Origin: Apus apus
Lineage: Eukaryota; Chordata; Aves; Apodiformes; Apodidae
DNA length: 64,000 bases
Assembly: GCF_020740795.1 (NCBI RefSeq)
Contig: NC_067287.1
Span: 33,969,501 to 34,033,500, forward strand
Direction: 5' to 3'
The translations under genes were made by a program, and so were the position numbers. How positions within the stretch are numbered: the first letter of the stretch is position 1; each line of letters starts with the position of its first letter. Below are positions 3,001-53,868 of this stretch, one piece after another. Under the pieces are notes generated by a model. The model worked only from the letters and a program-made list of their open reading frames with translations, searched no databases and was not told where the DNA came from.

Positions 3001-5784
3001 AAACTCTTAACCCAGTTTCTACTGTAAAATGAGCTCCTCTGCCTCATGCCTCCCATCTCACCTGCCAATCTCCCCTTACCCAATTCCTTCTTTATCTTAC
3101 TGCGACAAACAACCTTCTCGTTCAAACAGTCATCTTTGACAAACATCGTCCACCTTCCTCTGGTTCTTACCAGAACCTCCACAGGGTCCTCCTCTTCCTC
3201 TGTGCACATTGATTTTGCCCATCACTTGCAAGATGACACAAACCGTAACTAGCCCGGAGCCACGTGGGTGCTCGTGAGCCAGCAAACTGCTGCCAAGCAG
3301 AACGAGGAACGTTTGCACCTTCAGCAAAAAGCGTGTGAAAACACACACCAAACTAGCAATTCTAATGAAAACCATCAGCACTTCACAGCTACAAGACCTC
3401 ACTGAACCCACGGTTGCCAAGTTAGGCTGAAACAGGCCTATGAATACAGAAGTTTTCTGGAAGCACTGGACAGGCGAGACAGAAGGAGCAAGAAGAAACA
3501 GTGTAATTGCAAATGTTTTTCTTTGAAATCCAGGCAAACAAAAGAACAGAAGTGTTTCAAGAGATCAGCTGTGACCCTGGCTCAGTCACATCTATTGATC
3601 AGGATCGATAGGAACAACTGCAGTTGTGACTCTGACCATTTTATTTTTTCCGATAAAAAAGAGGAAACTGCAATTTTATTAACACCTGGATCATGATAGC
3701 TGACTGCCATTTAAAATAATTAACATTAAAGTTAGAAGATGAACAGAAGCTGATCAGACTGACACTGAAGAGACTCTAAAAAATTAAAGCAATTTGGTTC
3801 CCCTCAACTGTGTGATTAAACTGGATTTTATTCTCTAGCAAATTAATGGGTAATCACTTTCATTTAGAGTTGCTCACCAGCCTTTTTAAGCCAACATCTG
3901 ACCCAACCTACAAACCAACACACCTGCCATTAGCCAGGATTTAGAACAAGCTGCACAGATTTAAGTGTCCATTATTTATGGAACTACCTAATGACACCTC
4001 CCACCTATTTTCTCAATCAACTGCACTGTACCTTGTCTTCCATCATGTGCTATTGTCAACAGTTTCAAGTGAAATCTAAGCAGACTTTGCAAACTAGTCT
4101 CTCAAGGGAAGAGTTTCCATTTAGCAGGGACATGGAATAGTCTACATGAGAGGTTGCCTACCTTCCAGTCAATGGCTTTCTTACAGGTCATGACATCTTG
4201 TGATTGCTGCTGATTGTAACACCGTCTCATGACTCGTTTGCAGATTTCTCTTTCTTGTTATTATGAAATCAATCCTTCAGCTAAAAAAAAAAAAAAAAAA
4301 AAAAGACCAAATGAGCATAACATCACTAAGAGCACAGCACTGGACAATTCAGACCACAGATTCAAAGAAGTTTGACTTAGTTTTGGTTGGGATATTTTTC
4401 CAGATACAAACTGTCATAGAGATAGAAATCAGCAATATTAACTGCATATTTCTATGCATATACATATATAATTTCATATATCATATATACTAACCAATGT
4501 TGACACTAAGGCATACACCTTCTGCAAAGAACCTGGAATAAATGTCCTAATTTTCTGTAATTCTCCCAGACATACCACACTTACTAAACAGGACTATGGC
4601 TGTCCTGTTGATTTCTGCTGTGATCAATTAAAATTGAGTAAACAGATGTTGCTCTTCTGATCAGGACATTGACACCTTTGTATTTAGTGCTCTAACTACA
4701 GGAATTGCAGAACTGCATCTTCCTCTGAGGAGAGAAAACTTCTGATATGGCTCATTCACACCACTTAAGAGATCTACTTGGAGTCTTCTGTTAAGTTGTT
4801 ATTAAAAAGGAAGATGGTCATGCCCTAGTTTTAAACTAGCTGACCACAGGACCTGCAAATCAGTATGTTTCTTGAAGGTGAACAGAAATACCATTAAACA
4901 GGGAACAGTTTCTTTGTTTATTTTATTTCAAGCTGTGAGCTCGTTCTAAACCAAGGAGAAAAAGACAGATGCAACCAATGGCTTCACTAAGAAGAAATTT
5001 AATACCAACTCAGACAAGGAATCAAAAGCAAAACAAGGTGAAAGGAGAAAAGAGAGAGACCACAAATTAAATAATTTAGTTTATCTCAGTCATGTCCTAG
5101 GTTGACATCTGTCTAGTGCAAAATTGCACTACATTATAGTCATTGACTAGTAGCTTTTGTATTTGTAGAAAATAAATGTTTGTGAGAACAAAGAGATTAC
5201 TTAATTTTCAAGACAGAGTTCTGGCAAATGAATTTCTTAAACATCTGCAAAGCCAAGGAGAAATATTTCACAGCAGCAGTGATGGAAAAGCTCTGACTGA
5301 AGATTTACAAACCATGTGTGAAACTATTTCAGACAGTTCTTAATCACTAGCTTAAAAATCAGCAGGCACTCTGAATGTCACTGGTATCCAGGTGAAAGTC
5401 ACACATATTGCAAAGGATTGTGTTTGGGTTTTTTTTAATTGGCAATGCTTGAAATGGATATGAGAGATTTTGTAGTGTATCAGAAAGGTGCAGAAAACAT
5501 AGAAGTGACAGAGAGCCAACACTGTGCTCCCTGCAGATCAGCCCTTTCACAAAACATGGACTGAAACACTGGAAAAGTTCGAGAATGTTTTGCTTTAAAA
5601 GGTGAGGGAGGGAAATAATATTTTCATCATCAACTCTCTCCAAACTTGAAGAATAAAAAGTCTCTAGAAAAGGGGAGGGAAGAGGAGAGGACACCAAGGT
5701 GAAAAGGAAAAAGGAAACGAAAACAACTTACGGACCCTTCTAAGACCCTACAGTGAAGCTGTTTGTGAAAGATTCCAAACAACC
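1..5784. other. AT-rich intergenic stretch, no gene recognised
   Basis: I see no convincing coding exon, RNA gene or full mobile element here. Open frames are short, lie on both strands and show no recognisable domain. The stretch includes an uninterrupted run of 22 A at 4283-4304 and one weak exon-like segment on the minus strand (4162-4257) described in the findings. If synteny with mammals holds, this is the intergenic DNA downstream of ZNF804A. Confidence 0.6.
4283..4304 (+). repeat. poly(A) run, 22 nt
   Basis: Uninterrupted A22. It could be the tail of an old retroposed sequence, but I see no clear source transcript upstream and no obvious target-site duplication. On the other strand it would be a polypyrimidine tract followed by AG. 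Confidence 0.9.
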
Positions 5785-27382: not shown

Positions 27383-27445
27383 CTAAATATTGCCAAATTC
27401 AATCAGTGGCCCCGTGGGGCCCATCATGTTGGTGGCCTTAGGGCC
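27383..27445 (-). pseudogene. Y-box relic exon 5, beginning only, ends at TAG
   Basis: After a ccctgcag acceptor the frame reads GPKATNMMGPTGPLIEFGNI and then TAG (27383-27385). The family sequence here is GAEATNVTGPGGVPVKGSRYA. ATN and GP are kept, and similarity fades after about residue 12. Beyond the stop I see no arginine-rich basic/aromatic islands, so the 3' part is lost or unrecognisable. Confidence 0.68.
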
Positions 27446-27544
27446 CTGCAGGGCCCACGAGGGGATACCATGGGGGTGGGGGGTGGTGACACTAATTTGA
27501 GGTCCTTCCTACAAAAAAAAACTTCCATCCCAGCCCCGAATTAC

Positions 27545-27634
27545 CTTCTTGGCCTCCACCATGTTGAACTCTACAGTCTTGACATCTCCCAGGCTGTGCT
27601 GTTACTTCCAGAGGTTGTTTCTCTTGATGGCTGT
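27545..27634 (-). pseudogene. Y-box relic exon 4 (90 nt) with in-frame TAA
   Basis: The acceptor is caaatgtag and the donor gtaatt. The 90 nt equal 30 codons: TAIKRNNLWK, then TAA at 27602-27604, then QHSLGDVKTVEFNMVEAKK. It aligns codon for codon with TAIKRNNPRK-Y/F-LRSVGDGETVEFDVVEGEK of the family, so the stop sits at the aromatic residue (TAC/TTC to TAA). There is no frameshift. The stop would cut the protein in mid-domain. Confidence 0.87.
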
Positions 27635-27735
27635 CTACATTTGGGGAGTGCCCTCAAAATGTGGGGCAGCCAGAAGGGGAGTATTCCCCCCCAGCACCCC
27701 CCCCTTGGGGGTTTTGGGTGCAGGAGGGTTGTTAC

Positions 27736-27769
27736 GTGGTGAACAAAGATATCCTCCTGTGTGTCATTC
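27736..27769 (-). pseudogene. Y-box relic exon 3 (34 nt, RNP2 segment)
   Basis: The acceptor is ttcccccag and the donor gtaaca. The 34 nt encode the end of Arg, then NDTQEDIFVHH, compared with NDTKEDVFVHQ in Y-box proteins. The phase (one base, then eleven codons) and the length match the family's very short third exon. The RNP2 motif (V/I-FVH) is intact. Confidence 0.9.
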
Positions 27770-28023
27770 CTGGGGGAACCCAAAAAAAAAGAAGGGGGTG
27801 TTAAGGTTTTTTTCTGGACCCCCCAAAATTAGGGCATTTTGGGGGACACCCTAATGCCACATCCAGTACCCTACAAATTCCATCCCATGCAAACAAGGAA
27901 GCATCCTCCCAGGACCTTCCTCCCACCCCTTGAAGGGGACCCCAGAAACCCCAGGGGTGACCCCAAAACCTTCCAAAGCCCTGGGCCCCCCCAGTATTGT
28001 GTGTTCCCTGCTCCCCCTTTTAC

Positions 28024-28087
28024 CTGGTGGAGTAGCCATAGCCCTTGCAGATGCTGAACCATTTGATGGTGGCCAGCACCTGAGTGG
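28024..28087 (-). pseudogene. Y-box relic exon 2 (64 nt, start of cold-shock domain)
   Basis: The acceptor is ccctttccag and the donor gtaaaa. Exactly 64 nt translate as (A)TQVLATIKWFSICKGYGYST(R). It aligns without gaps to the Y-box segment [22 protein letters not shown]. KWF and the GYG of RNP1 are kept, but several residues normally invariant in Y-box proteins have changed (N to S after KWF, FIN to YST). No frameshift or stop. Confidence 0.87.
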
Positions 28088-28468
28088 CTGGAAAGGGGTG
28101 AGGGGATAAATTTTAGGGTGAAAGCCCCCAAATTTGGGTACAGCCTATCCCAAATTCTCGTCACTTTAAGCCTCCCCAGGGGACTTAACGCACAACAGGG
28201 GGAATCCCTAAGCCCCCCCTTAAGGACAAGGGATCCCCAAAAGTGGGGTGGGGATATCCCCAATGCCCTTGTCACGATTGGGGGAACGCCCCAATTCACC
28301 TCCCACCACAGCTAGGGACTCCCTAAACGAAGTGGGGGACACCCTGGATCCCCCATCCCACAAGGATTCTAACTGCCCAAACAGGGAGGAGCCTAAAGAG
28401 CTGTCAGTCAACAGCTGGGGGGCTCAGCTGTCCATCCACAGCCTCAGGTGGGTACCAGGGACCCCGAT

Positions 28469-28560
28469 TGTTAATCAAGAACCCCAAGGGGGTCCCAGAC
28501 CTCTTCCCCAAGACCCCTCTGCTGTCAACCAACAGCCCCAGGGGGATCCCAGACCTTCCC
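28469..28560. repeat. tandem pair of about 54-bp GC-rich units in Y-box relic intron 1
   Basis: Two units begin tgttaatc (28469) and tgtcaacc (28523). Both continue with an aaccccaagggggtcccagacct- or agccccagggggatcccagacct-like stretch in two short parts. A more diverged start (tgtcagtcaacagc) lies at 28402. This is a small minisatellite-like array and may explain the length of the first intron. Confidence 0.6.
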
Positions 28561-28660
28561 ACTGCCCTTCAGCAGACCCACGAGGGAAACCAGAGCCCCT
28601 CAGCTTCCGCACAACTCCCAACCACCATCCCCTGCCCTGGCAGAAGGGAAGGGGCCCCAC

Positions 28661-28892
28661 CGAGCACCTCCTTGGCTGCTGGCACCAGTGTCTCCTGAGT
28701 GGGGTGGAGCGACGGCCCCCGTGGCTCCTGAGGAGGTGGAGGCGATGGCGGGAGCAGCCCTGGAGGGGGCTGGGGGAGCGGGGTGTGGGTTCCTGAGGGA
28801 ACAGCCGGCGATCCTGAGGTGGGAGCAGCCCTGCGGGGTGCTGGGGGGCAGCCCGGGGGGTCTGCATGGCCGGACCCAGGATGGGGCTCCAT
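28661..28892 (-). pseudogene. Y-box relic exon 1 (N-terminal Pro/Ala-rich segment)
   Basis: This is an open frame from ATG (28890-28892, G at -3 and G at +4) for 77 codons plus one base. It begins MEPHPGSG, is rich in Pro, Ala, Ser and Gly, and ends with codons for AAKEVL plus G, before a GTGGGG donor at 28655-28660. The trailing G joins exon 2 CC to make Ala, giving VLA|TQVL. This reproduces the phase-1 junction and sequence of Y-box genes at that point. Low-complexity N-termini are usual in YBX2. The same frame stays open upstream to 29090, but the chosen ATG lies just downstream of the CCAAT and GC boxes. Confidence 0.68.
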
Positions 28893-28930
28893 CCCTGTGG
28901 GGGATGCCTTTGTGGGGAGGTGCCACCCAG

Positions 28931-28953
28931 GCCCCGCCCACTCATCCCATTGG
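28931..28953 (-). promoter_or_regulatory. CCAAT box followed by GC box, minus strand
   Basis: Read on the minus strand, CCAAT (28953-28949) is followed 9 bp later by GGGCGGGGC (28939-28931), a consensus Sp1-type site. Both lie 40-60 bp upstream of the proposed Y-box ATG. Order and spacing fit a TATA-less CpG-island promoter firing leftward. Y-box proteins were named for binding an inverted CCAAT element, so autoregulation is conceivable but untested. Confidence 0.55.
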
Positions 28954-28996
28954 TTCACCCGCGAGAGAGCCGCGAGGGGATTGGATGGGCAGTGGT

Positions 28997-29002
28997 CACG
29001 TG
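28997..29002. promoter_or_regulatory. E-box CACGTG
   Basis: A perfect palindromic CACGTG, the class bound by MYC/MAX, USF or TFE-type bHLH factors, lies about 105 bp upstream of the proposed Y-box ATG. The sequence alone does not show which factor, if any, uses it. Confidence 0.4.
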
Positions 29003-29069
29003 GTGGCCGCCTGCAGGCGAGCCAGGGCAGGGCAATGCTCACCAACGCCCAGCGCCGCCCTCTCGCCTC

Positions 29070-29087
29070 ATTTGCATAGATTTGCAT
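29070..29087. promoter_or_regulatory. two adjacent octamer motifs ATTTGCAT
   Basis: ATTTGCAT occurs at 29070-29077 and again at 29080-29087, 10 bp apart and in the same orientation. This is the consensus POU/Oct octamer. A third copy lies at 29165-29172. Three exact octamers within 103 bp of GC-rich DNA are unlikely by chance. Confidence 0.6.
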
Positions 29088-29164
29088 CATCTAGGCCGGG
29101 GGAAAGGGGGGTGGAGGGGGGTACAGGTTGGAGGCCTCGCTCTGTAATTAGTCTCATGGAGCTC

Positions 29165-29197
29165 ATTTGCATAGAGCGGCACGGTTGCCACGGCAAC
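29165..29197. promoter_or_regulatory. octamer plus RFX X-box palindrome
   Basis: An exact ATTTGCAT (29165-29172) is followed 11 bp later by GTTGCCACGGCAAC (29184-29197). The latter is a two-arm RFX X-box (GTTGCC/GGCAAC, 2-bp centre) differing at one central base from the ideal GTTGCCATGGCAAC. RFX factors, notably RFX2, drive ciliary and spermatogenic genes. This fits a germ-cell Y-box gene, but the functional link is inference. Confidence 0.65.
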
Positions 29198-29350
29198 GCG
29201 GCTCCCTCACGATGGTGGGAGCGGATCCTCCCCCCCGTGTCCCAGCCTGGTGCTCCCTCCAGATTCCATCAGGCTACATCGGCGCCGACGGCCGCGCCAG
29301 GAACGCGCCAGGGTCCCTTGTAACGGCGACGGGTTCGAACGCGTGGTACT

Positions 29351-32300
29351 TACTCATTCGTGCCAAGGGTGCCCAGCTCCTATCCACACACCGCTCCTTT
29401 CTACAAGTCCACTTTCAAAAGAACTGCTGCTTCTTTGTTTTGTGAGGGGGTTTTTTGAGGTAAAAAAAAGTCATTATTTTCTCTTCAAATCTCATTCACA
29501 GCAAACAAACACCACTGCTGATGGAACAGTAACCTTCTTTAATTCGCATAAATAATATTCTATCCATCGTGGATTCACATTTGCAGCTTACTTAATTATT
29601 ATGGTTTTCTCTACATGGATCTGCACGTTTTGACCTTAGCTCAAGGACCACTGATATATTATTATACCTAAGTATTGTATGAATGTAGTCCCACTTACTA
29701 AAACCTTCCAAATGAGCCTGTACAGCCAGAAAACTTTTCTAACTGTTTGGTTTTTTCTTTTCTTTGGTATCAGAATAGAAGGTGCACACAGGTGTTTCGA
29801 AACACTGATGATACAGAACTGAAACTGTAAAGATACTGATTTAAAATGGATTACTTTTCTTTAGTAGATTGTGCTCTTCATAATACCTTATGAAATTATT
29901 ATTTGACTGAAAAGAATAAGTATTAGGGAGTTTAAATAAATAAAGAGCCCTACTGCCCCAGGTCAAAACAAATCCTCAATAATATTAATGGCAAAGCTTC
30001 CTTTGACTTCACTGGTTTCAGAATTTCACCAACAAGTCAAAATTCAGACTCAGGGTCGAAATTCCATCAACCTTTTATAAAATCCAGACAATAAAACACA
30101 CGCTTGAAGCAAAAATAAGCCTTGTAATTCTTAAGAGTTGGTACACTCATTTTTGCAGCTTGAAGTAATAAAAAAGTCTGGTTCCTATTCATAAAAGATA
30201 TAAATCCCAATAAACTCTTATAGACTCACAAACAGAAAAACAGAAAACTTTATAGTGTTCCTGAAGTACAGAGGAGAAGGACATAAAATAATATACAAAA
30301 CCATGCCTACTGCAAACATCAAACCTAAGTGATCTATAAAATAACATACTCATTTAGATAGTAAGCCATGTTAATTTAAAAATATCAAATGATCTTTATA
30401 CAGTAAAAATGTCTTTGCTTTCCATAAAGAGAGTTAAGATAGCTTTGTAAAACTTTACGACAGGTAGGTAGGCATATTGCATAAATATGTGCACTGCTAC
30501 ATATATACAAGTCTTTAGGCAATGTACAGTCATGGAAACCAGAAAATGAATGTGTGGAGTTTAGAACAAGTAGACTATGAGCACCACAGTAAAATACCCA
30601 GTAGATTAAAATTTGCCACTTGAATTTTAAACAAATAACTGTCTCCAAAATACATTCAGATGGTCATAACTTATTGCCTTAATCTGGGAAAACTAACAGA
30701 ACCCTTAAGGTTGCAACATGATTGATTTTTGGTTGGTACAAATCAACGGAATTCTACCAATGTCAGAAGTTGTACCTTGATTTACACCAGCTGAAAGTCT
30801 GGCCAAATATACTTAAAACGGTGTTTTAAATGCAGCATAGAAAGTAAATATTATCATCACGCAAACCATGTGTTTTTAAAAAACTGTACCATTATAGAAG
30901 ATGAACTCAACAAATTACAGCCATGTTGCATATTGCATAACAAGCACATCATCATGTATAGTGACATATTAAAGAGAAATGGATGTCCCAATGGTCTTCT
31001 GAAACTTAATGTGAATATCATATAGAAAGGAGGATTTTCAAAAGTGTAAAAGCTTACTAACTGATAAAAAATTAACATTGCAAGTAAAGACTGCTTTACT
31101 TCATACTGATTTAATTGTTTGATTGCAGCGAGTGATAAAAAAAGTTCTGACTCAATAATGCTCTGTAGAAGGTGTTTCTTTTACCACTATTTATGGTTCC
31201 TACCTCTGCAACTACCCAGCGCTCGCTCCTGTAGAATCTGAAATCTGGTCATTTCTCCCCAGCAATTAAAAGCTTGTGTATCTTCTATTTTGTGAATGAA
31301 ACCAAATAAACAGTTTGATTATTTGCATGTATCGGTAGCAGTAAAAAAAAAAAAAAAATTAAAAAAATCAATATACTCACAGACAGCATAAGAGAGTTTG
31401 AATATTCCACACTGCCCATCACAGGGCAAGGCGATCGTGTTCCTTAGTGCCCGGAAGCTCCTCTAGACCATAAATGAGACCATTACTCTCTGGCTCACAT
31501 TACCTGAGAAAGGCTGTGTCCCCAGGAAGGTCATAGTCTGCACAGACTGCAACTTCTCAAGGGCTGAAAACAAGGTACTTCTCATCTCCATGGAACAGAT
31601 TAACTTTTCGAGCATTTTCCTGCAGAGCTGTTCTGGAATATCACTTAGCAACATCTATAACCTCATTAAGGTTTAGGTCTGAAGGTGTAATTCTTGCACT
31701 TCAGGGGCACCACTTTTACTGTTTATACTGGAATAACAGGGCAATAATTCTAAAAATTGGCAAACTGGCCAGGAACATGGACACACTAGACCTGTGTAAA
31801 TTTGAAAATTCAAGAGTAAATTAACTAGGTTTAACAAATTTGGCGGATTATTTAGCATTTGCAATAATTTTTACTTATAAATTATACTACTCAGTTACAG
31901 AATAAATATACACATTTAATGTAAAATACCAGATAAAACATGAAGAACTACCCTTATCTACCTTACTAAAAGTCACATGTCTAACAATAAAATAGAAACT
32001 CAAAATATTATTTTATTAGGTAATTTCATTTAGCATGTTAAATTTTGAACTTCACTTGTGATTAATTTTTATATTGGTTTTACTTTTACATATGAAGTGA
32101 CATATACAAGCAGTACTAGCATTAAAGGAAATACCATATTAGAAAATTATTACATTGGATGGTTATTAGTCTTTTATTGTAAGTAGTTTATACACTATTG
32201 AAAAGCAATTACAGTAGATAATAAATAATTTTATATGCAAGGTCTTAAAACTGTTTAACAACTTAAAATAGAAATATAAATAATTTAAATTGTACTAAAA

Positions 32301-34528: not shown

Positions 34529-34749
34529 TTCATATTAGTATCAGACTATTCAGTGCTTTAATTATAGTATAGGTCTGAACTTTACGTGAAGGTTTGCATC
34601 GTTATACTTACAGTAAATGTTTCCCAAGGAACGAGGAGTTTTAACCAGTTTATTTCACAGAACCGTTTTGGCAGAGCCAAGGGGACTGCGGAAATAGCAG
34701 GACCTTTTAGCTCAAGGCTCCTTCCACCAACATCCCCGAGGAGCCTGTC

Positions 34750-37700
34750 CTAAAAGAGGGGCTGCAGGGGGATGACAGCCGGATGTGGAGACAGCAGGGA
34801 CGGGAAGACAGCGTGAGGCAGAGGGGCCAAGGCCAGCTGGGTGGGGTGCAGGACCGAGGGCGGCAGCAGCGGCGGCAAATGTGGCGGGGCGACGAAAGCC
34901 GTGTGGCCCCCAGGACAAATCCTTGGTCCTACTGGTAGATGAGGTAAAGGTGCTCTGGAAAGAGCCGGGACCTGGGAGACGAACTGCTGGTGGGGCTGGA
35001 GAAACTTCAACGTGCTGGCGGCGGCGTGTTGCTGCAGGACAGTGTGGTGGATGGTGGTAATGGAGGTAGAAGAGAGCGGTGGCTGCAAGGGCAAGGGCTG
35101 CAGCGGGGAACTGGGGGGCTGGATCGCTGGGGAAGGGAAGGCGAACTTCACTTTGTTGGCCAGCATGTTTTGGGGCATGATCTGCTGATACGCCTCAGAT
35201 GGGAGATCTTTGAATTTTTCGTGGTTGTCTGGAGGGAATATCAACGTCTGATCTGGCAGGGTGAAGGGGGCTATTAACTGCTCGGTAGTTAAAAAGGTAT
35301 GGCTATTTACATGTGCTTCTTTGAACGGCAAGGGCGGTGGGCTGCTAAATATGCCTGGATGACACGGTACCCATTCACTGGTCACCTCATTTATTTTCTC
35401 ATGTGGTAGAGACTCAGCCAATTCGTAATGGCAAAGACTGGACCTAGGAGGAACTTGTTCCAAATGTCTGTTGGGGAGCGGAATTTTGTAACGAGCTTGA
35501 TTTTCACGACTGTTGACATTTTCTTTTTTCTTCTCATCCTGCAGAATATCCTGCACGCTGGCAGCTGCTGGAGCATTGTGCTCAGGAACAGAAGCAGCAG
35601 AACCTGTGATGACATCAGAAAACGTACTCGGAGTGCTCTCCATCGCTGTGCACCCTGTCAGTTTGTCCTTTTCCAGCACATGTGAACTATCAGTTTCTAG
35701 ACACGACTTGCTTTCTTCCAGCTGCATTGTTTCTTCTGTATCTTTTGCTTGATCAGCTTTAGGATCCACATTAGTTTCCTCTAGACTGTCTTGAGTCAAG
35801 AAGTCCATCAAAGTACTTGAAGTAGAACTTGCAGAATTTTCTTTGGAAGTTTTGGAGGTCTCACTTTTTGCATTCCTGTCAAGGAAAATGTGATGGATTC
35901 TAGTTTTCCTTCTCCTGTGTTTGCCTTTTGCCTTGTGATGTGTACCTAAAATATGTGCTTGCCTTAGATACTCGTCTGCTGATAACGTCTGACTGTATGA
36001 GCTTTCATCTGATGAAGAGGAGCAGGTATGTTGTCTCCGCTTGCGGTGGGATTTTTCAGGTTCCTCTGTCAGAAGGCTGTAAACTCTTTTTATGGACTGG
36101 TTTTGACTGGGGCTCTTCTTCTCACTGCTGTGTCCTAAACATTTATGCTCTGGACTACAGCTCAGCCTCCTGACTTTGCAGCTACAACATTTTTTAGAGT
36201 ACCTTAAGCTGTGCCTCCTGGAACTCAGAGCCAGCTGCTTCGCCTGCCTCCGAGAGCTTGCTTTGCTCTTTCTGTGCACTCGTTTACAACCACGGTGGCC
36301 ACTATTTTTTGTAGCCCAAGCATGACACCAGTCTCTGTCCCCATATGCATAATCTGACATAGAGATGGCTCTCTTTTGACCATTTTCAATGCCAAGTTGT
36401 TGATGTGACTGCTGTATCTCACCTGCAGCGAGCCAGATATTCCCTGCATCATGTCTGCCCCTCTCGGGATTATTTTGGAGGAGAGGATATTTATTTTCAT
36501 CTCCATAACTAACTTCTTTCTCACTCACTGGGGACATCTCCATTTCTGCCACTGATGTGTCTCCACAGTGATGATGATGAAAATGACAATGACATAATCT
36601 TCTTCTCCTTTTCCGTTTTCTACTTTTGTGAAGCCATTTTGCATGGCTTTTTTTGATCCAGACTTTGTTGTATTTCTCGTCTATCACAGTGTTTTGTCCT
36701 AAGGAATTTTTAGAAATGTGATACTTTTCCTCTTTTCTAATCCTGAATGACTCATCCAAGGGCACTTTATTTTGATTTTTTGCAAGATGATGATTTCTGA
36801 TGAGGGAAGCATCACTTATAAGGGGTGTCGTATAGTTGCACACATTTTTGTTCGTTTCTGTTTCATAATCATGACAATCTGAAGGAGGTTTATTTGTAAA
36901 ATCCAAGACTAAGGTAGAGTTGGATTCGGTTTTATGGTGCACGTGAGGTATGTTAGGCTGATGCTTGGGCTTTTCGTGGCTGTCGCTTGCTCTCGATGAT
37001 TTGAAATCAAAATACAGAGGATTACAGCTGTAAGAAATGGATGGGTCTGTCCTTGTGTAAATTAACATTTCTGATGGCCACTGAAGAACGTTTGATCCAT
37101 GTTTGCTAAGAACAGGAACAAAGGGCTCACAAGGTCTCTTGCGCACGTCCGGTTTGCTCTCTGGAGCTCCACTACCACCTTCGTCAGGTGGCAACGGAAC
37201 CAATGCATCTGCCCCCGGATTTTTTATTTCAGTTTCAGTTGTGGATGAATCACTGTTCCTGTCTTTATCATTCTCCTCCGCAACATCCTGCAGAGATAAA
37301 CAATCCTCCACGACTGCCTGTGTGAGAGCCTTGGTTGCCTGCAGCTCATAACTGCTGCAGTCCAGGGGCAGGACCTGAGCACCGTCTGCAACCATGGGCA
37401 GCGTCTGCTCTGGTAGGTCTGCTGTACTTACATCAATACCATAGCTCTCCATGTCCAAGGACACTGGTTGCTTTGAATGGGACACTGCAAGAGTTAATTC
37501 AGGACTCTCTAGAACCCCGGTGTCTTCACTGGCCAGCTCTTTTGACTCCTGAGCTTCAGAAGCTTCTGCTGGGTCAGTGCATTTTTCTACGAGTGGGTGA
37601 AAAGAGTTATGTTTCTCCTCAGGGCTCAGGACTATTTCTGCTGCTGCTGGAGACTGAAGGGTACAAGCTCCTGGAACAAACCTACTTTTTCTGCTCAATC

Positions 37701-38047
37701 CGTGCTCCACGGACGATTCATCGTTATATTCATAGAAAACAGCAGCTGAAGACTCCAGTTTGACTGCTGCTTTCTTAGGAAAAGCAAAAGAGAACCCAAC
37801 TCTATGTCCTTGAGTTCCTTGAACTTGATCTCCAAATTTGTTAGCGTCGGATTTATCACTACATGCATTTCCAGGAGTGGAAGAAGTAACGGAAGCCACG
37901 TCTTTGCAATTCTGGGCATCTTGCATTAATGAGCAGCTGAAATCCTGCTTGTTGGCAGGATCTATGGCAGCACTTGGTGGGATATCATTGCAATGATCTT
38001 GCACTGTCACTGTCGTGGATTTGAACATTGGCCCACTTCCAGGAGCA
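34750..38047 (-). CDS. ZNF804A: zinc finger protein 804A, last coding exon (exon 4)
   Basis: The acceptor is cttcctag; the first base completes a split Cys codon with exon 3, then APGSGPMFKSTTV follows. The exon stays open for 1098 codons and ends in SPHPAVIPLQPLF-stop. Stretches I recognise from vertebrate ZNF804A, in order: GFSFAFPKKAAVKLESSAA, SRKSRFVPGAC, CEPFVPVLSKHGSNVLQWPS, SYSCNPLYFDFKS, RKRRQHTCSSSSDES, SSLCHYELAESLP, ITTIHHTVLQQHAA and LLSPHPAVIPLQPLF. ZNF804A is a nuclear C2H2 protein linked to transcript regulation and to psychiatric risk in humans. The exon encodes no zinc finger. It has basic clusters (RKRKRRRR next to a His/Cys-rich stretch at about 36560-36635; RRRK at about 35910) that may act as nuclear localisation signals, and a proline-rich C-terminus (34750-35300). 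The poly-Ala run I recall after QQHAA in human is absent. The frame extends 50 codons into intron 3, which is read-through. Confidence 0.96.
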
Positions 38048-40911
<2,864 letters not shown>

Positions 40912-42457: not shown

Positions 42458-43107
42458 AGTGGGTAAGAAGTATGCAACAAAGCAGCAGCAGAAAGAGATC
42501 AAAGGGTGCTTTTTCACAGGTTAAAAAGGAGAAGCTGAGGTGTGTACAAATCCATAATCACCCTCCAGCAGCAGCAGCACTTTACTGTAATTACTGGGAT
42601 GATTATGATCAGTGATTTGATTCTGACCAGATTTTGACCCCTTTTCTTTTCTGGCTGCAAGTTAGCAGGGCTCCATGCCGTCGAGAGTGCTGAAGCTAAC
42701 ATGACTCCTCGTTTCAGGGTGTGAGTAGGGTCTCACTCACAGGGAACAGGGACAATGCTGTTAAAGGAAGTTGTATGTGACCTTGGAGGCACAGAGATGT
42801 ATCATGCCTAGCATTGCCAAGCAAACATCATCCTACCAATCTGAGCCTCTCGTCAGCCTGATCAGTCATTATCTATTTAGCACATACCAGAGCTAGTCCA
42901 GAAGAACCGTTTACAATTTTTAAGTAATTAAATTGTTCCCCTTCATTGCTACAAGTAGGTGTCAACATGTAAGACACAGGAGCCTGGCAGAAGTTGTGTG
43001 TGCACAGCTTTCGTGTCAGGCCGTCTGCTCTTCTCTTCTGGAGAACTAGTCATTCCAGAGCTCCCCTTCTGTTAGGGCCTCCTGACAAATACACTGCCCC
43101 TTTCCTG

Positions 43108-43720
43108 TGCAGGCCAATGGCATCCTGGGGTGCATTAGAAAGGGTGTGGTTAGTCGGTCAAGAGAGGTTCTCCTCCCCCTCTGTTCTGCCCTGGTGAGGC
43201 TGCATCTGGAGTATTGTGTTCAGTTCTGGGCCCCTCAGTTCAAGAAGGACAGGGAACTGCTTGAAAGAGTCCAGCACAGAGCTACAAAGATGATTAAGGG
43301 AGTGGAACATCTCCCTTATGAGGAAAGGCTGAGGGAGCTGGGTCTCTTTAGTTTGGAGAAAAGGAGACTGAGGGGTGACCTCATCAATGTTTACAAATAT
43401 GTAAAGGGTGAGTGTCAAGAAGATGGAGTTAAGCTTTTTTCAGTGATGACCAGTGATAGGACAAGGAGTAATGGATACAAATTGGAGCATAGGAGGTTTA
43501 AGGTCAATATCAGAAAAATTTTTTTTACTGTGAGAGTGACAGAGCACTGGAACAGGCTGCCCAGAGAGGTTGTGGAGTCTCCTTCCCTGGAGACATTCAA
43601 AACCTGCCTGGACGCCTTCCTGTGTGATGTACTCTAGGTGACCCTGCTCTGGCAGGGGGGTTGGACTAGATGATCTTTTGAGGTCCCTTCCAACCCCTAG
43701 GATTCTGTGATTATGTGATC
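43108..43720 (+). mobile_element. CR1 LINE, 5'-truncated, open ORF2 C-terminus
   Basis: A sense-oriented CR1 3' end. The frame 43107-43637 stays open for 176 codons and carries the CR1 ORF2 C-terminal signature: [57 protein letters not shown] and the terminal FLCDVL. A short 3' UTR follows ('ctagatgatc', 'aggtcccttccaacccc') and then a degenerate ATTCTGTGATTATGTGAT tail. It closely matches the antisense copy at 47895-48500, and both are truncated within about 20 bases of the same point. Opposite in orientation to ZNF804A, inside intron 2. Confidence 0.93.
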
Positions 43721-46620: not shown

Positions 46621-46749
46621 AACCTGATTCCTACTTTATACAGGGATTAAATAGGAGTATTGCTTAGCATCTGGTGATTATTCTAGAAGCTACTCCCCTT
46701 TTTCTGAATCTCACGTGACTGTTGTCAACATACTCCCTCTTAACTGAGT

Positions 46750-47886
46750 CTTCCTCAGCTTCAGCGAGGCTTTTGACCCTGTCTCCCATAAAATCCTTCT
46801 GGATAAGTGTGAGTTAGTAGACCGGACAGTGAGATGGATCAAGAACTGGCTAAACAATAGAGCCCAGAGGGTTGTGATCAATGGTGCAGAGTCCAGATGG
46901 AGACCTGTGACTAGTGGTGTTCCCCAGGGTCAATACTGGGCCCAGCCTTTTTCACTATCTTCATCGATGACATGGATGAGGGGATAGAGTTTGTCCTCAG
47001 CCAGTTTGCTGATGACACGAAGATGGGAGGACTGGCTGGTACACCTGAAGGCTGTGCAGCCGTTCAGCAAGATCTAGACCCAATGGAAAGCTGGGCAAAG
47101 ATGAACCTTATGAGGTTCAACGAGAGTAAGTGTAGAGTCCTGCACCTGGGGGGAAAAAACACCATGCACCAGTAGAGATTAGGAGTTGACCTGCTAGAAA
47201 GCAGCCCCATGGAGAAGGACCTTGGGGTCCTAGTAGACAAGAAGTTATTCATGGGACAGCAATGTGCCCTCGTGGCCAAGAGAGTCAATAATATCTTGGG
47301 ATGTATTAAGAACAGTGTGGCCAGCAGGTTAAGGGAGGTTCTCCTCCTCCTCCTCTACTCTGCCCTCAGAAGACCACATCTGGAGTATTGTGTCCAGCTC
47401 TGGGTTTCCCAGTTCAAGAGGGACAGGGATATGCTGGAAAGAGTCCAAGGGAGGCTACAAGGATGATTAAGGGAATGGAACACCTGTCATATGAGGAAAG
47501 GCTGAGAGACCTGGGGCAGTTTTGTCTTGAGAAGACTAAGAGGGGACCTTATTAATGTCTACAAATATCTGAAGGGTGGATGTCAAGAATGGGCCAGTCT
47601 CTATCCAGCGATGACCTGTGAGAGGATGAGGGGAAATGGCACCAAGTGACAACACAGGAAGTTCCACCTCAACATGAGGAAAAACTTCTTTCCTGTGAGG
47701 GTGACAGAGGCCTGGGACAGGCTGCCCGGAGAGCCTGTAGAGTCTCCTTCTCTGGAGAATTTCAAGACCCATCTGGACACATTGGTTAGTGATGTCCCCT
47801 TGGTGTTCCTGCTGCAGCAGGGGGCTTGGACTTGATGATCTTCAGAGGTCCCTTTGCAACCCCTGTGATTCTGTGATTCTATGAAA
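46750..47886 (+). mobile_element. CR1 LINE, 5'-truncated, with reverse transcriptase remnant
   Basis: The longest CR1 copy here, about 1.1 kb. Broken frames encode CR1 RT motifs in order: FDPVSHKIL-like, 'WIKNWLN', a GVPQG-type segment, the catalytic-loop region SQFADDTKM (about 47000-47030, the [FY]ADD box), WAKMNLMRFNESKC, then the C-terminal region. It ends in CTGTGATTCTGTGATTCTATG repeats at 47864-47886. Several stops and frameshifts show it is inactive, and it is more diverged than the copies at 43108 and 47895. Its tail abuts the antisense copy that follows. Confidence 0.92.
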
Positions 47887-47915: not shown

Positions 47916-48500
47916 TAGAATCCTAGGGGTTGGAAGGGACCTCGAAAGATCATCTAGTCCAACCCCCCCCGCCAGAGCAGGGTCACCTAGAGTACATCAC
48001 ACAGGAATGCATCCAGGTGGGTTTTGAATGTCTCCAGTGAAGGAGACTCCACAACCTCTCTGGGCAGCCTGTTCCAGTGCTCTGTCACTCTTACAGTAAA
48101 AAAATTTTTTTGGATATTCACCTTGAACCTCCTATGCTCCAATTTACACCCATTACCCCTTGTCCTATCACTGGTCATCACTGAGAAGAGCCTAACTCCA
48201 TCTCCCTGACACTCACCCCTTACATATTTGTAAACATTGATGAGGTCACCCCTCAGCCTCCTTTTCTCCAAGCTAAAGAGACCCAGCTCCCTCAACCTTT
48301 CCTCATAAGGGAGATGTTCCACTCCCTTAATCATCTTTGTAGCTCTGAGCTGGACTCTTTCCAGCAGTTCCCTGTCCTTCTTGAACTGAGGGGCCCAGAA
48401 CTGGACACAATACTCCAGATGCGGCCTCACCAATGCAGAATAGAGGGGGAGGAGAACCTCTCTTGACCGACTAACCACACCCTTTCTAATGCACCCCAGT
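47895..48500 (-). mobile_element. CR1 LINE, 5'-truncated, antisense, open ORF2 C-terminus
   Basis: The complement of a CR1 3' end, starting with TTTCATAGAATCACAG at the tail. On the minus strand a frame stays open for 163 codons (48478-47987). It carries [57 protein letters not shown] and the terminal FLCDVL. It differs from the 43108 copy at only about a dozen residues in 160. Truncation is at 'ctggggtgcattag' near 48500. The open frame and similarity suggest a relatively recent insertion, placed directly against the 3' end of the older CR1 on its left. Confidence 0.93.
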
Positions 48501-51500
48501 TTATTGCTTCTTTAGGTGAATTTCGGCCTGACAAAGTGACAATGTACTCATTAGATAAACACTTGCCACACCAACCCAGATGAGCTGAGTATTCTTTTGC
48601 AAAGTGGATTAAGCTTAATCAATTATAAATAATAACTGAACAATCAGAGGTTCTGTAACACCTGTCAACACTCAAATGGGGAACGAAACATGCCATTTAA
48701 AGTTGAAAACATTGCTTACTAAGACATAAAATACATATCTTTCTGTCTTAGGTTGTTTGTGAGGACATACATTTTTCTGTTCTACAAGTGGAGACTCTTC
48801 ACGCAGCATGACAGGGCTGTGTCTCTTCACTTGCACTCTGGTCTGCCATTCAACATGCTCTCCATGACCATATCTTTCATATTATTTAAAAATAAGAAAT
48901 AAAAAAATAAAAAAATCTCCCTTTGTAAAGACTAAAGAAAAAACTAAAGCTCAAGGAAAAAAATACTATAATGCAAGAACACCTTACCCTGTTAGTGCTC
49001 CAACCCTTCCTTAGGAGGAGTTAAACAAGGCAATTTATTTCTACAGAAAGGAGAAATAGATTTCTCAATGAAATTAGTAATTCTGCAACTCAAATAGGCA
49101 GGCTAAGTAAGAAATTAATAAACAATCTTTCTTTGTGTTGTTTTTTTTTTCCTTTCTGCTAGTAAGGAATTACTGCTACAATGTATTCCTGCACTAGAAG
49201 AGAAACTGGGGGGCAATTTAACAGCAGCCTGAAAGTGTTGGATGGGATAGGGAGTTAACACAGCAGAAGGAGTCACTTCTTGCTAGTTGCAGGGAAAGCT
49301 TCCTCCTCGCTGAGGTGATGCAGCCCCAGAGCACATCATCTACAGGCACTGTGGCATCTTCAGCCCCATGGAAATTCAAGGCATGGCTGAAGAAAAATCC
49401 TTGTCTTACTCAGTGATTTCCTGCAGGTGAGCAGGAAGCCAGCAACTCCTTCAAACCACTAGTTTTACAATTTCTGTCCTAAGCAGTGAGTTATCCCCTC
49501 ACCTCACCGGTGTATGGACTACACTGGCCACTCTCTTTTCAAGAGGCCTTTAATAAGGTACATTGATCTAGAGCTGCCTTATGATGAACTTCAGGTTTGT
49601 TGCAAGTTCTAAGTTGCTTCTAACTGCCTCTGACTATAGCTGTATGCATCTCACTTTAAGCTGCAAAACTTAAACCCTTTCCTGAAAACAGAGAGCTCCA
49701 CAAATATGCAACAGAACCACGTTCTGTATGATGGGATATTCAGCCCTCCAGATCACAACGAGCATTCAAGTTGTGAAAAATAGCTTCCTCTTCTATTGCT
49801 ACCACAAATTGCAGCCATAAAGATGATCTCTTAATATCAGAAGAAACACAAAACCCACAGATAGAGATAGATGCAGGATTTTGAAATAGTAAGTCCTTGG
49901 ACTCCAGAGTATTCCTGAATACGTAGATTCACTTGATGTGAAACTAGGCTCTTCTTCCAGCATGGTCATGAGCACCATCCCAGACTGTGAAAGTGGGTAT
50001 GAATCAGGAGGAAGGAAAGGCTAGGATTGTTTTATCTGCCCGTCGTGGTTCCAAAGGGAGGCAGGTGACGAGTAGATCAGCTTTTTCATAATTCGAGGGG
50101 TTTTTAATTTAACTTTAAATGAATTGATGTAATGCAAATGTTCATAGACAAGGACAACTTGCTCAGGACCACACTCGAGCAATTTGCAGTGGTTCAGTTT
50201 GTTCTGCAGAGTGCAAAAAAGTATTGCAGAACCAGCTTTTACAACCAGACCCTACAAATACATACTAAATATACGTATTGTGACATACAAGTTAAAACTC
50301 ACATTGTTATTTTCTACTTTCAAATTAAAAAAATCTGAAATTATTTTATAATGAAAGACAACTGGTTTTTGAGACTACTTCATACTCATATATGAAGCAT
50401 CTTGTTCAAGTGTCTGGAGTTCAGTCACATTTTCCTGTGTAATTTCATAGAAAAAAATAAATGAAACGAGATTAAATTGAAAACCAAAACCAAATGAAGG
50501 CCTGTTTTCAAAATCATGAGGAAAATCAGAATATTAAATATTTTGCACACTTGCACATGTAATATACATGAAAGCTAATTATCTTTGATGAAGATCTTAC
50601 TAGTTACTCTTGATTAGGTGACTGCAAAAAATACACACTGGGGCAATGGAAGGAATAATAAATCTTTCTTTGCTTTCTGTTCAACATTTTACCTTCAGAA
50701 ATTACCTGCCAGAAAGAGACACACACTTAATTATGTGATGATTAATGCCCTTCCTAGCATAGTAAGCTGTTTTCTTTGACATTCTGGTGCCTGCTCATCC
50801 TCCTTTCCAGTGCAGGGGGCTGCAGGATTCAGATAGCACTGTGGCTTTCAGTTGAACCAAGGCTCCAGGGCTTTGACAAATAACAGGTTGTGGAGCTTAA
50901 ATTAAGGCTTTTGTGGCTTTTTGGGTTTAGATAACAAAGTTTTCTAAAGTTGACTAAATGGCCACAGCATTGCCATTGTGCAAAAACATTGTTTTAAGCC
51001 TGCAGAACTGCTGAGTGTTGCCTACCCAGTATTTCCCTGCCACAGCCAAGCCCACGTGTAACAGCAGCCTGGTCTTATTGCAAGCTGCAGGGTATTTTTT
51101 GTCAGCTTCAGCAAAAATCAGCAGAATACTCCATAAATATTAAGGTCAAGACCAAAGAAAACAGCAGAGAAGTACAGAGTTAGCATCTTACCCATCAAAT
51201 TAATTTTACCAGATAATGAAAAGAACACAAAGCTGACACACACTTGTGCAGCTGGGAAGTGGTTCCATATGCTAGTCTCTAATTTAAAGGTATTTATTTT
51301 AATGACTCTAGGTCTAATTCTGCTTCTCTTGAAGTCAATGGAGAAACTCCCACTGGGCTCAGGGAGAGCAGAGGTTTTTAATTCAGCATGGAAATACTCA
51401 GTAGCACTTAAGGGAGCATCTTCAGTCGCAAAGATTAAAGACAAGATGGGTACCCATCACTTCTTTGAGGACACTTCACACCCACTCCTGCACCATTCAG

Positions 51501-53527
51501 GACTCTTAACTAAAAAAAAAAACAACAACTAAACCAGGTGGCCCTAAGAGTGGGGCTGCCCTCGGAGGCCACAGCTCCTCTTTGCTGCTCCACAGGGACA
51601 AGCCAGCACGGATAGTCTCAGACATGGTGTGCCATCCCGTGGGCCCACAGCATTATCTGCCACCTTCACTTCACTGCAGCAGTGATGTTTAAGCACCCAG
51701 AGCACTTCCGAGCACAGCATGTGCAATATTTTTCATGTTTGACAGTTCTGCAACCACAATATTGACACAGTGAGGCACTGCCTCCTGGTATTTTCAGTCA
51801 CTGAGTGCCAAATGCTGATGATGTTTTATTCTCTGGCCAGTTACAATTTCCCACACATAAATAACAAAGAGCTCCACAACATCCCTTCTCAACTCTATTC
51901 AGAAAGTTTTAAGATACTGGGAAAATTCTTGTTTAAGCAGCATCCCTCTTCCATAAATCATTTCACAGAAGCAATTAATTCCTCAACAAGAAGCCCTTTC
52001 AGAGAAAGGTCAGCTCTATACCTCTTTGGAGAGAGGAATACAGGATTTCCTCTTAGAATGACTTTCTCTTGGGAGATGATAAGGCCATGAAATAGATGGC
52101 TCCATCAACACATAACCATTGGGTGGCTCAGCTACTAAAGTTGCCTTTTTCTCATTTTGGAGACTGTTTTTCTGTTTCCTACATCAGCGGCGTATTGGCA
52201 GCTCTGACATCTTTGAGACTTCACCCAACTCTTCACTACGGTGCCCTCCAACACCTACTGGTGTCTATTGTGACCCACCAGCTTTTCACCTTGGTCAAAA
52301 AGGTTCACTGGGTCTCCAGCACTTAAGTTCCCTGTAGGATCATGCTGCTGTTCTGATCATTCCTCCTCCTTTCCTGAAGGAGGACACAATACCCTACAAT
52401 ACCTTGTGTTCGACGAGCACACTGAAAATGACAAGCAGAAATTTTGAGTGTATCTCTACAACGTGCACAGTGACTGAAAGTGAGGAATTAGTATTTACAG
52501 TCAGGTTCCCTAAGGGCTATTTTCCATAATCCTTGAAGGATACTCTAATAACTCTTATGAGCTGAAGGAGATACATGAATTCCCTCACAGTTAGCTCTTT
52601 CTTTTAATTCTTTATGTCAGAGCTAAATCATAATCGCTTTCCCACCTCAGTTTTATATTGGATCACTGAGCCGTTCAAAGCCTCTCTTCACAAATTGCTT
52701 CTCATCAGCAGGATCTGGTCCTTGCCAGAGATTATCCCAGGACCATGACAAGCTTCTTCAAAGAATATATAAAATGTGACCAATGGAAATTGAGACAAGA
52801 ATGGCCCTTTGTAAATTGTGACACATATCGCACAGGCACAGCTCACTGGCACAGACAAAACCTGCTACCCTTAAGCCAACCTTTAATACTACTCACCCAG
52901 ACTCCTCTGAGGGGGAAAGAAAAAAAGAGATTAAAGAGAAAAATTATCAAATATGAAGTCTGCACCTCACAAGGCAAAATGAATTCATATCGTAATTTGA
53001 TTTACGCTTTCATTTTCAACTGTTTAAGTGCAGGATGTTGTAAAGTACCTTTGATAACATGCCACGGACGTCATTGTGAGGTGCTGGTAGCAAGTGGCTA
53101 TGAGAGCACATGTCTCTATGTGTGTCTTCTACTGCATCATTGCTTTTGCAGGCTGAAATCTTAGTAACTGTAGAGCAAGGATGCAAGTGTCACCACTTTG
53201 TGTTAATCAAGTATTACGTTATCAGTACATGGCAGCTTGGAGACTGCTGAGGGGAACCAGGAGTGGAACACACACCCTCACAAGGACAAGCTCAAGGTCA
53301 CAGCAGAGGCCTTGGAGGTGGAACGAACAGGATGAGAGCAGGGTCACAGGGCTATAAACAACTCACTGGTGCTCAGTTACTGCTTGCTAAAGGAATGCGA
53401 CTTTAAAATATGCATAAAAGTGGGTTCAGGGCTTAAAAGAAAATGATGCATCCAACACACTATACATAGCAAATTTTACCACAAAATGCAATTGGAAACC
53501 ACTGGAGCACATATTTGTGTTAGGAAA

Positions 53528-53868
53528 TATTGGAGTCCCTCTCGCATGAGAGCAGGCTGGGAGGGCTGGGCTTGTTCAGTCTGGAGAAGAGCAGGCTCTG
53601 GGGAGACCTTAGAGCACCTTCCAGTGCCCGAAGGGGCTCCAGGAAAGCTGGGGAGGGGCTTTTTACAAGAGCATGGAGGGACAGGCCGAGGGGGGAATGG
53701 TCTCAAACTGAAAGAGGGCAGATTTAGATTAGATACTAGGCGGAAATTCTTTCCTGTGAGGGTGGTGAGACACTGGCACAGGTTACCCAGGGAAGCAGTG
53801 GCTGCCTCATCCCTGGAAGTGTTGAAGGCCAGGTTGGATGAGGCTTTCTATGATAATTATATTTAAAT
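53528..53868 (+). mobile_element. CR1 LINE 3' fragment, sense
   Basis: The plus strand carries CR1 3' landmarks in order: 'gagagcaggctgggagggct', 'gttcagtctggagaagagca', 'ggggagacctt', 'ttctttcctgtgagggtggt' and 'ctggcacaggttacccaggg', 'tgttgaaggccaggttggat'. A 126-codon frame through it is mostly open. The terminal tail repeats are missing. It belongs to a different, older CR1 subgroup than the copies at 43108 and 47895. Confidence 0.9.

Follow-up and report, generated by a model that had tools for sequence, protein, structure and literature searches.

A truncated, intron-bearing Y-box pseudogene, most likely derived from YBX2, in the genome of Apus apus

Vertebrates have three Y-box genes (YBX1, YBX2 and YBX3), and dead copies of Y-box genes exist as processed pseudogenes. 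Mouse MSY2, as described in passages of PMC7226217, packages and stabilises stored mRNA in germ cells, in oocytes above all, and the same passages give a Pro/Ala-rich N-terminus as a family trait of Y-box proteins. The dot-chromosome genes of birds have repeat-filled introns according to the excerpted text of PMC12954441, where chicken SLC2A4 is assigned to dot chromosome 35. Several dot-chromosome genes (IRF9, CARMIL3, PLEKHA4 and TPPP2) are reported in excerpts of PMC12954441 and PMC12220609 to have moved to unrelated places. With regard to lost genes, the excerpted text of PMC12954441 states that no pseudogenes were met, and that of PMC12220609 reports none of IRF3 or IRF9. Among the literature matches listed, there is no description of a bird YBX2 or of a Y-box gene beside ZNF804A.

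Here, we describe a Y-box gene relic on the minus strand of a 64,000-nucleotide stretch of Apus apus DNA (the window), part of contig C7 in an assembly of 110 contigs and 1.10 Gb. The original prediction for this DNA held that minus-strand pieces of 64, 34 and 90 nt with GT/AG borders encode successive blocks of a cold-shock domain (CSD) in the right phase, and these pieces are present as exons 2 to 4 of the following structure:

Exon 1, 28661..28892, minus strand: 232 nt from the ATG; Pro/Ala-rich N-terminal stretch ending AAKEVL-G, then gt
Intron 1, 28088..28660, minus strand: 573 nt; contains a decayed tandem of about 54 bp at 28429-28556
Exon 2, 28024..28087, minus strand: 64 nt; encodes (A)TQVLATIKWFSICKGYGYST
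Intron 2, 27770..28023, minus strand: 254 nt
Exon 3, 27736..27769, minus strand: 34 nt; encodes NDTQEDIFVHH
Intron 3, 27635..27735, minus strand: 101 nt
Exon 4, 27545..27634, minus strand: 90 nt; encodes TAIKRNNLWK, a stop, and QHSLGDVKTVEFNMVEAKK
In-frame TAA stop in exon 4, 27602..27604, minus strand: 57 nt ahead of the exon 4/exon 5 junction
Intron 4, 27446..27544, minus strand: 99 nt
Exon 5, first part, 27383..27445, minus strand: 63 nt including a stop; GPKATNMMGPTG, after which homology is lost and a TAG follows

All five exons (28892-27383, minus strand) are bounded by GT/AG. Two features go beyond the original prediction, namely that the relic breaks off within exon 5 and that a CpG island lies at its 5' end. 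The decayed tandem in intron 1 was reached by none of 500 shuffles and none of 109 control segments, the closest of which fell one match short of it; TRF did not call this tandem (28429-28556). Exon 1 also holds a 30-nt repeat (28747-28776 and 28818-28847, 87% identity), the two copies of which are read in different frames because their spacing is 71 nt. In exon 4, the codon right after the stop ends in AG when the sequence is read at 27599-27604 on the minus strand (TAACAG/CAC), and a putative acceptor at this point would bypass the stop in frame at a cost of 12 codons, the stop included.

A tblastn search of the whole window with the YBX2 cold-shock domain, which had been proposed as a check, gave three collinear minus-strand matches with raw scores of 75, 59 and 81, all above the top single score of 53 in 60 dinucleotide-shuffled windows. 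When joined, the pieces matched the Pfam CSD family (E 1.9e-15), and the best solved chain was the YBX2 chain 7f3i, presumably the human one (E 5.9e-28, 100.2 bits), with YB-1 chains reaching at most 96.3 bits. Two single-exon queries run alone gave no Pfam match, and a protein database search with the joined pieces returned six candidates, none with an E of 0.001 or better, this search being little informative on birds. Neither a tRNA search nor Rfam at gathering thresholds found anything. YBX1 and YBX3 of the same genome have intact domains and internal exons of exactly 64, 34 and 90 nt, and exons 2, 3 and 4 of the relic equal theirs in size, AG/GT borders and phase. The end of exon 1 likewise agrees with the exon-1 end candidates of both genes, so that the borders, on which the original prediction could have failed, coincide exactly with Y-box borders. 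By its cold-shock domain and its 64/34/90 exon plan, the relic belongs to the Y-box (YBX) gene family, and it is a pseudogene of that family, with no working status, because the TAA at 27602-27604 breaks the frame of the domain. The claim of a decayed, DNA-level and intron-bearing copy rather than a retrocopy holds, as four introns with their borders are present; a processed pseudogene is ruled out by these introns.

Searching the genome with the YBX2 domain yielded 11 matches in all. Two of them on C1 and two on C21 (81-96% identity) read as YBX3 and YBX1, respectively, whereas the two larger pieces of the relic were recovered at E 0.2 and 1.0 only. Pairs on C4 and C22 are presumably of LIN28 type from a reading of their translations, and the translation of the remaining match (C4:8530879) bears no recognisable relation. 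A search with the CSD family gave six matches, of which we take the four on C24 to be CSDE1-like and those on C15 and C1 to be CARHSP1/CSDC2-like, again from their translations. In a DNA search of the assembly with 27383-29420, which passes over simple repeats and very common words, the matches were the relic itself and exon 4 of YBX3 at 73%; no second copy of the relic was found, which argues against a similar DNA copy elsewhere in the assembly. Nor did the YBX2-domain and relic-DNA searches find an intact YBX2 elsewhere in the assembly. An equally decayed further copy might escape the domain search, since the exons of the relic itself reached only E 0.2 and 1.0.

Silent sites were used to place the relic among the paralogues. 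The YBX1 and YBX3 domains of the same genome are equal at 73/73 residues, yet at only 16/31 fourfold third positions, which shows silent sites to be close to saturation. With each of the two genes, the relic has 42/73 residues in common, and its fourfold third positions equal those of YBX1 in 3/18 and those of YBX3 in 6/18 cases. A recent neutral copy is expected to retain about 81% of fourfold bases, and the probability of the observed counts under such a copy is 6e-9 for YBX1 (3/18 or fewer) and 1e-5 for YBX3 (6/18 or fewer). Among degenerate codons with an equal residue, the agreement is 19/41 between the relic and YBX1, 17/41 between the relic and YBX3, and 37/72 between YBX1 and YBX3. Because its silent sites match no better than this, the relic represents a third lineage whose split is about as old as that between YBX1 and YBX3, and it is distinct from both. 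With three Y-box genes in vertebrates, a third old lineage would by elimination be YBX2, which is the most likely identity of the relic.

The original prediction had arrived at a YBX2-type gene from its wording, and this part of the argument proved weak, whereas the silent sites lend the assignment a new footing. Residue likelihoods, from a comparison made without any reptile or bird YBX2 sequence, favour YBX2 over YBX1, YBX3 and FRGY2 by 1.5-2 log units across 77 codons, and speak against it by 0.4 log units across 73. A hypothetical YBX2 parent with four residues partly picked from the relic fits at least 6 log units better by construction and is no evidence. Two of three YBX2-like residues are present (Arg in IKRNN and Thr in ATN), the third (Phe in RKF) being the stop, and the VLAT wording is common to the relic and YBX3. 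In the alignment to solved chains, the stop occupies the single position at which YBX2 and YB-1 differ by Phe and Tyr. From that alignment, we equate the stop column with site 99 of PMC7226217, where, in the passages concerned, YB-2 has Phe and YB-1 has Tyr (Phe99/Tyr99). The stop would thus speak mildly against a Phe parent, since a Tyr codon can become TAA in one step and a Phe codon only in two.

The base composition and introns of the relic suggest where its source may have lain. Its GC3 is 0.78, compared with 0.59 and 0.34 in YBX1 and YBX3 of the same genome, and introns 2 to 4 measure 254/101/99 nt, as against 3112/2079/223 nt in YBX1 and 1680/4924/172 nt in YBX3. At 573 nt, intron 1 falls between its counterparts in YBX1 (349 nt) and YBX3 (3768 nt), so that in this intron the relic is not compact relative to YBX1. 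From the GC3, the short introns 2 to 4 and the decayed intron tandem, we infer a dot-chromosome origin; these features recall dot-chromosome genes without proving an origin there. Human YBX2 presumably adjoins SLC2A4 and EIF5A, and an EIF5A probe found nothing better than E 1.2 in the window, so the idea that this might be the ancestral bird YBX2 locus was not borne out. The EIF5A family has one match in the assembly (C9:21829088-21829231), which reads as EIF5A2-type, so that an EIF5A of the type neighbouring human YBX2 was not seen there. Besides EIF5A, the usual neighbours of YBX2 include NEURL4, GPS2 and ELP5. In a Neuralized search, C14 had two matching stretches, C16 had one and C5 had three, of which two make up complementary portions of a single domain; from their translations, we read those on C14 as NEURL1B, those on C5 as NEURL1 and that on C16 as NEURL2. 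No six-repeat (NEURL4-like) gene was seen in the assembly, although an intron-split gene could escape this search, and searches for GPS2 and ELP5 gave no match in the assembly and none in control genomes either. The canonical YBX2 block may be lost or unassembled.

The long exon beside the relic (34750-38211, minus strand) has a stop-to-stop frame of 1153 aa and is ZNF804A in the naming of the original prediction; the frame had no match in Pfam (E 0.001) or among solved structures (E 0.1). Stretches that read as CR1-like LINE fragments lie at 43086-43637 (plus), 46748-47841 (plus), 47987-48511 (minus) and 53447-53866 (plus), and Pfam gave one weak reverse transcriptase score on these four, under the curated cut-off. 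Among the listed repeats (20 of 21 direct families), there was no convincing pair for a target-site duplication.

Upstream of exon 1, the relic retains the following features, of which the promoter-like motifs are motif matches alone, scored without a shuffled control and listed by the minus-strand position of their 5' base:

CpG island at the 5' end of the relic, 28904..29489, no strand: 38 CpG, observed/expected 0.73, GC 0.60
Promoter-like motifs (putative), 28934..29172, minus strand: the region holding the matches below
GC boxes (putative), 29060 and 28939, minus strand
CCAAT (putative), 28984 and 28953, minus strand
CACGTG (putative), 29002, minus strand
Octamers ATGCAAAT (putative), 29172, 29087 and 29077, minus strand

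Scanned in 200-bp steps, the window has four merged stretches that meet island criteria. Over its full length, 28904-29489 alone among the non-coding stretches continues to do so, since 3093-3443 then drops to a GC of 0.48 and an observed/expected ratio of 0.57; the other two, 34705-35303 and 37113-37341, coincide with the long coding exon or with its end. Methylated CpG decays fast, and the intact island therefore points either to low germ-line methylation or to a divergence that preceded the arrival of the copy. Residual germ-line promoter activity is what the island would suggest, and the relic may still be transcribed. Identical 14-mers (CTCATTTGCATAGA) at 29067-29080 and 29162-29175 bear the octamer and resemble what we take to be the H2B box of histone promoters. 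Because of the octamers, histone probes were run against the window, and no histone gene was found (best E 0.40 for H2A and 0.63 for H2B).

In our judgement, the relic is probably a DNA-level, 3'-truncated and relocated copy of a third Y-box gene (most likely YBX2) that has become a pseudogene. Since the three paralogues have almost the same domain and their protein likelihoods scarcely differ, a duplicate of YBX1 or YBX3 instead of YBX2 might be considered, but it is very unlikely: for a recent copy, lnL is -205.8 with YBX1 codons and -215.3 with YBX3 codons, whereas the YBX2 protein combined with free codons reaches -178.8 (a more flexible model than those with real codons), and outside the exons a blastn search with an E limit of 1 found nothing beyond short, scattered matches. 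Misassembly or chance resemblance, which might be raised because a single assembly was examined, is extremely improbable in the face of the solved-chain match (E 5.9e-28), the shuffled control and the exact exon borders.

Two further accounts are compatible with a truncated YBX2 pseudogene and are versions of its history. The homology of the relic stops inside exon 5, and the C-terminal domain with its alternating charged clusters was not recognised: probes for this tail reached a best E of 0.51 over the 3.45 kb that end at 27450, and a best E of 0.046 in the whole window, on the opposite strand within the relic. With the stop present and no intact parent found in the assembly, the truncated piece might have been dead on arrival and never functional, its island a leftover. 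This course is possible, if on the unlikely side, as its changes correspond to about 0.2-0.26 neutral substitutions per site and hence to an old event, after which methylated CpGs should be gone, and yet the island has 38 CpGs, in contrast to the CpG-poor gene body. The kept borders and the lack of indels fit poorly with long, purely neutral decay. There are no indels in 234 coding nt (P 0.003-0.1 under neutral decay, assuming 0.05-0.1 indels per substitution and 0.20-0.25 substitutions per site), all 16 of 16 splice-border bases survive (P 0.02-0.05 for the same range of substitutions), and four neutral models produce harsher replacements than those observed (P 0.02-0.08). Together with the intact island, these values would suit a long-lived, short and fast-evolving CSD-only germ-cell protein that died recently. 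That account is rather unlikely, however, as each conservation signal is modest and the locus was selected for its intact look, and the single stop agrees with the number expected under neutral decay (four models, mean 1.0-1.2). What we take to be the four nucleic-acid-stacking positions of the domain stay aromatic, but this is also the outcome in 15-24% of neutral simulations, and the change of arginines to Cys, Trp and His resembles unconstrained decay.

For a relocated YBX2 pseudogene, the source would have been a compact, GC-rich YBX2 gene, from which a DNA segment with exons 1-4, the beginning of exon 5 and the CpG island of the promoter would have moved, presumably out of a GC-rich, dot-chromosome-like place, and come to adjoin an unrelated gene (ZNF804A, if the original prediction named it correctly). 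The relic lacks the C-terminal domain, its cold-shock domain is no longer under strict constraint, and exon 4 holds the stop; owing to this stop, translation of a spliced mRNA would end after about 120 residues, which would make the transcript a candidate for nonsense-mediated decay. A bolder version, speculative and unlikely, would have YBX2 escape its dot chromosome in truncated form, serve for a time as a CSD-only germ-cell protein and die, leaving a promoter still unmethylated and transcribed in the germ line, with the relic as the last trace of YBX2 in this genome.

If only a dead piece of YBX2 remains, the lineage handles its stored germ-cell mRNA without YBX2, presumably via YBX1 or YBX3. 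The relic would also be a datable fossil from a gene block that, in the excerpted accounts, is said to vanish in birds without pseudogene traces. The order of escape, decay and loss would thereby become testable, with a bearing on the rescue of genes by relocation from dot chromosomes.

Compared with known systems, the relic is like YBX2 (MSY2, contrin, FRGY2) in its cold-shock domain, its exon plan, its IKRNN and ATN wording and its Pro/Ala-rich N-terminus, but differs in the stop within the domain, in having no recognised C-terminal domain, in sharing only 47/77 residues and in sitting beside an unrelated gene. Y-box processed pseudogenes are likewise dead, whereas the relic alone retains four introns and a promoter island. 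With the relocated bird dot-chromosome genes (IRF9, CARMIL3, PLEKHA4 and TPPP2), as portrayed in the excerpts cited above, it has in common that it is intron-bearing, GC-rich and in an unrelated place; those are reported as present genes, while the relic is truncated and dead. It thus represents no new type of system and joins the relocated GC-rich genes and gene relics of birds.
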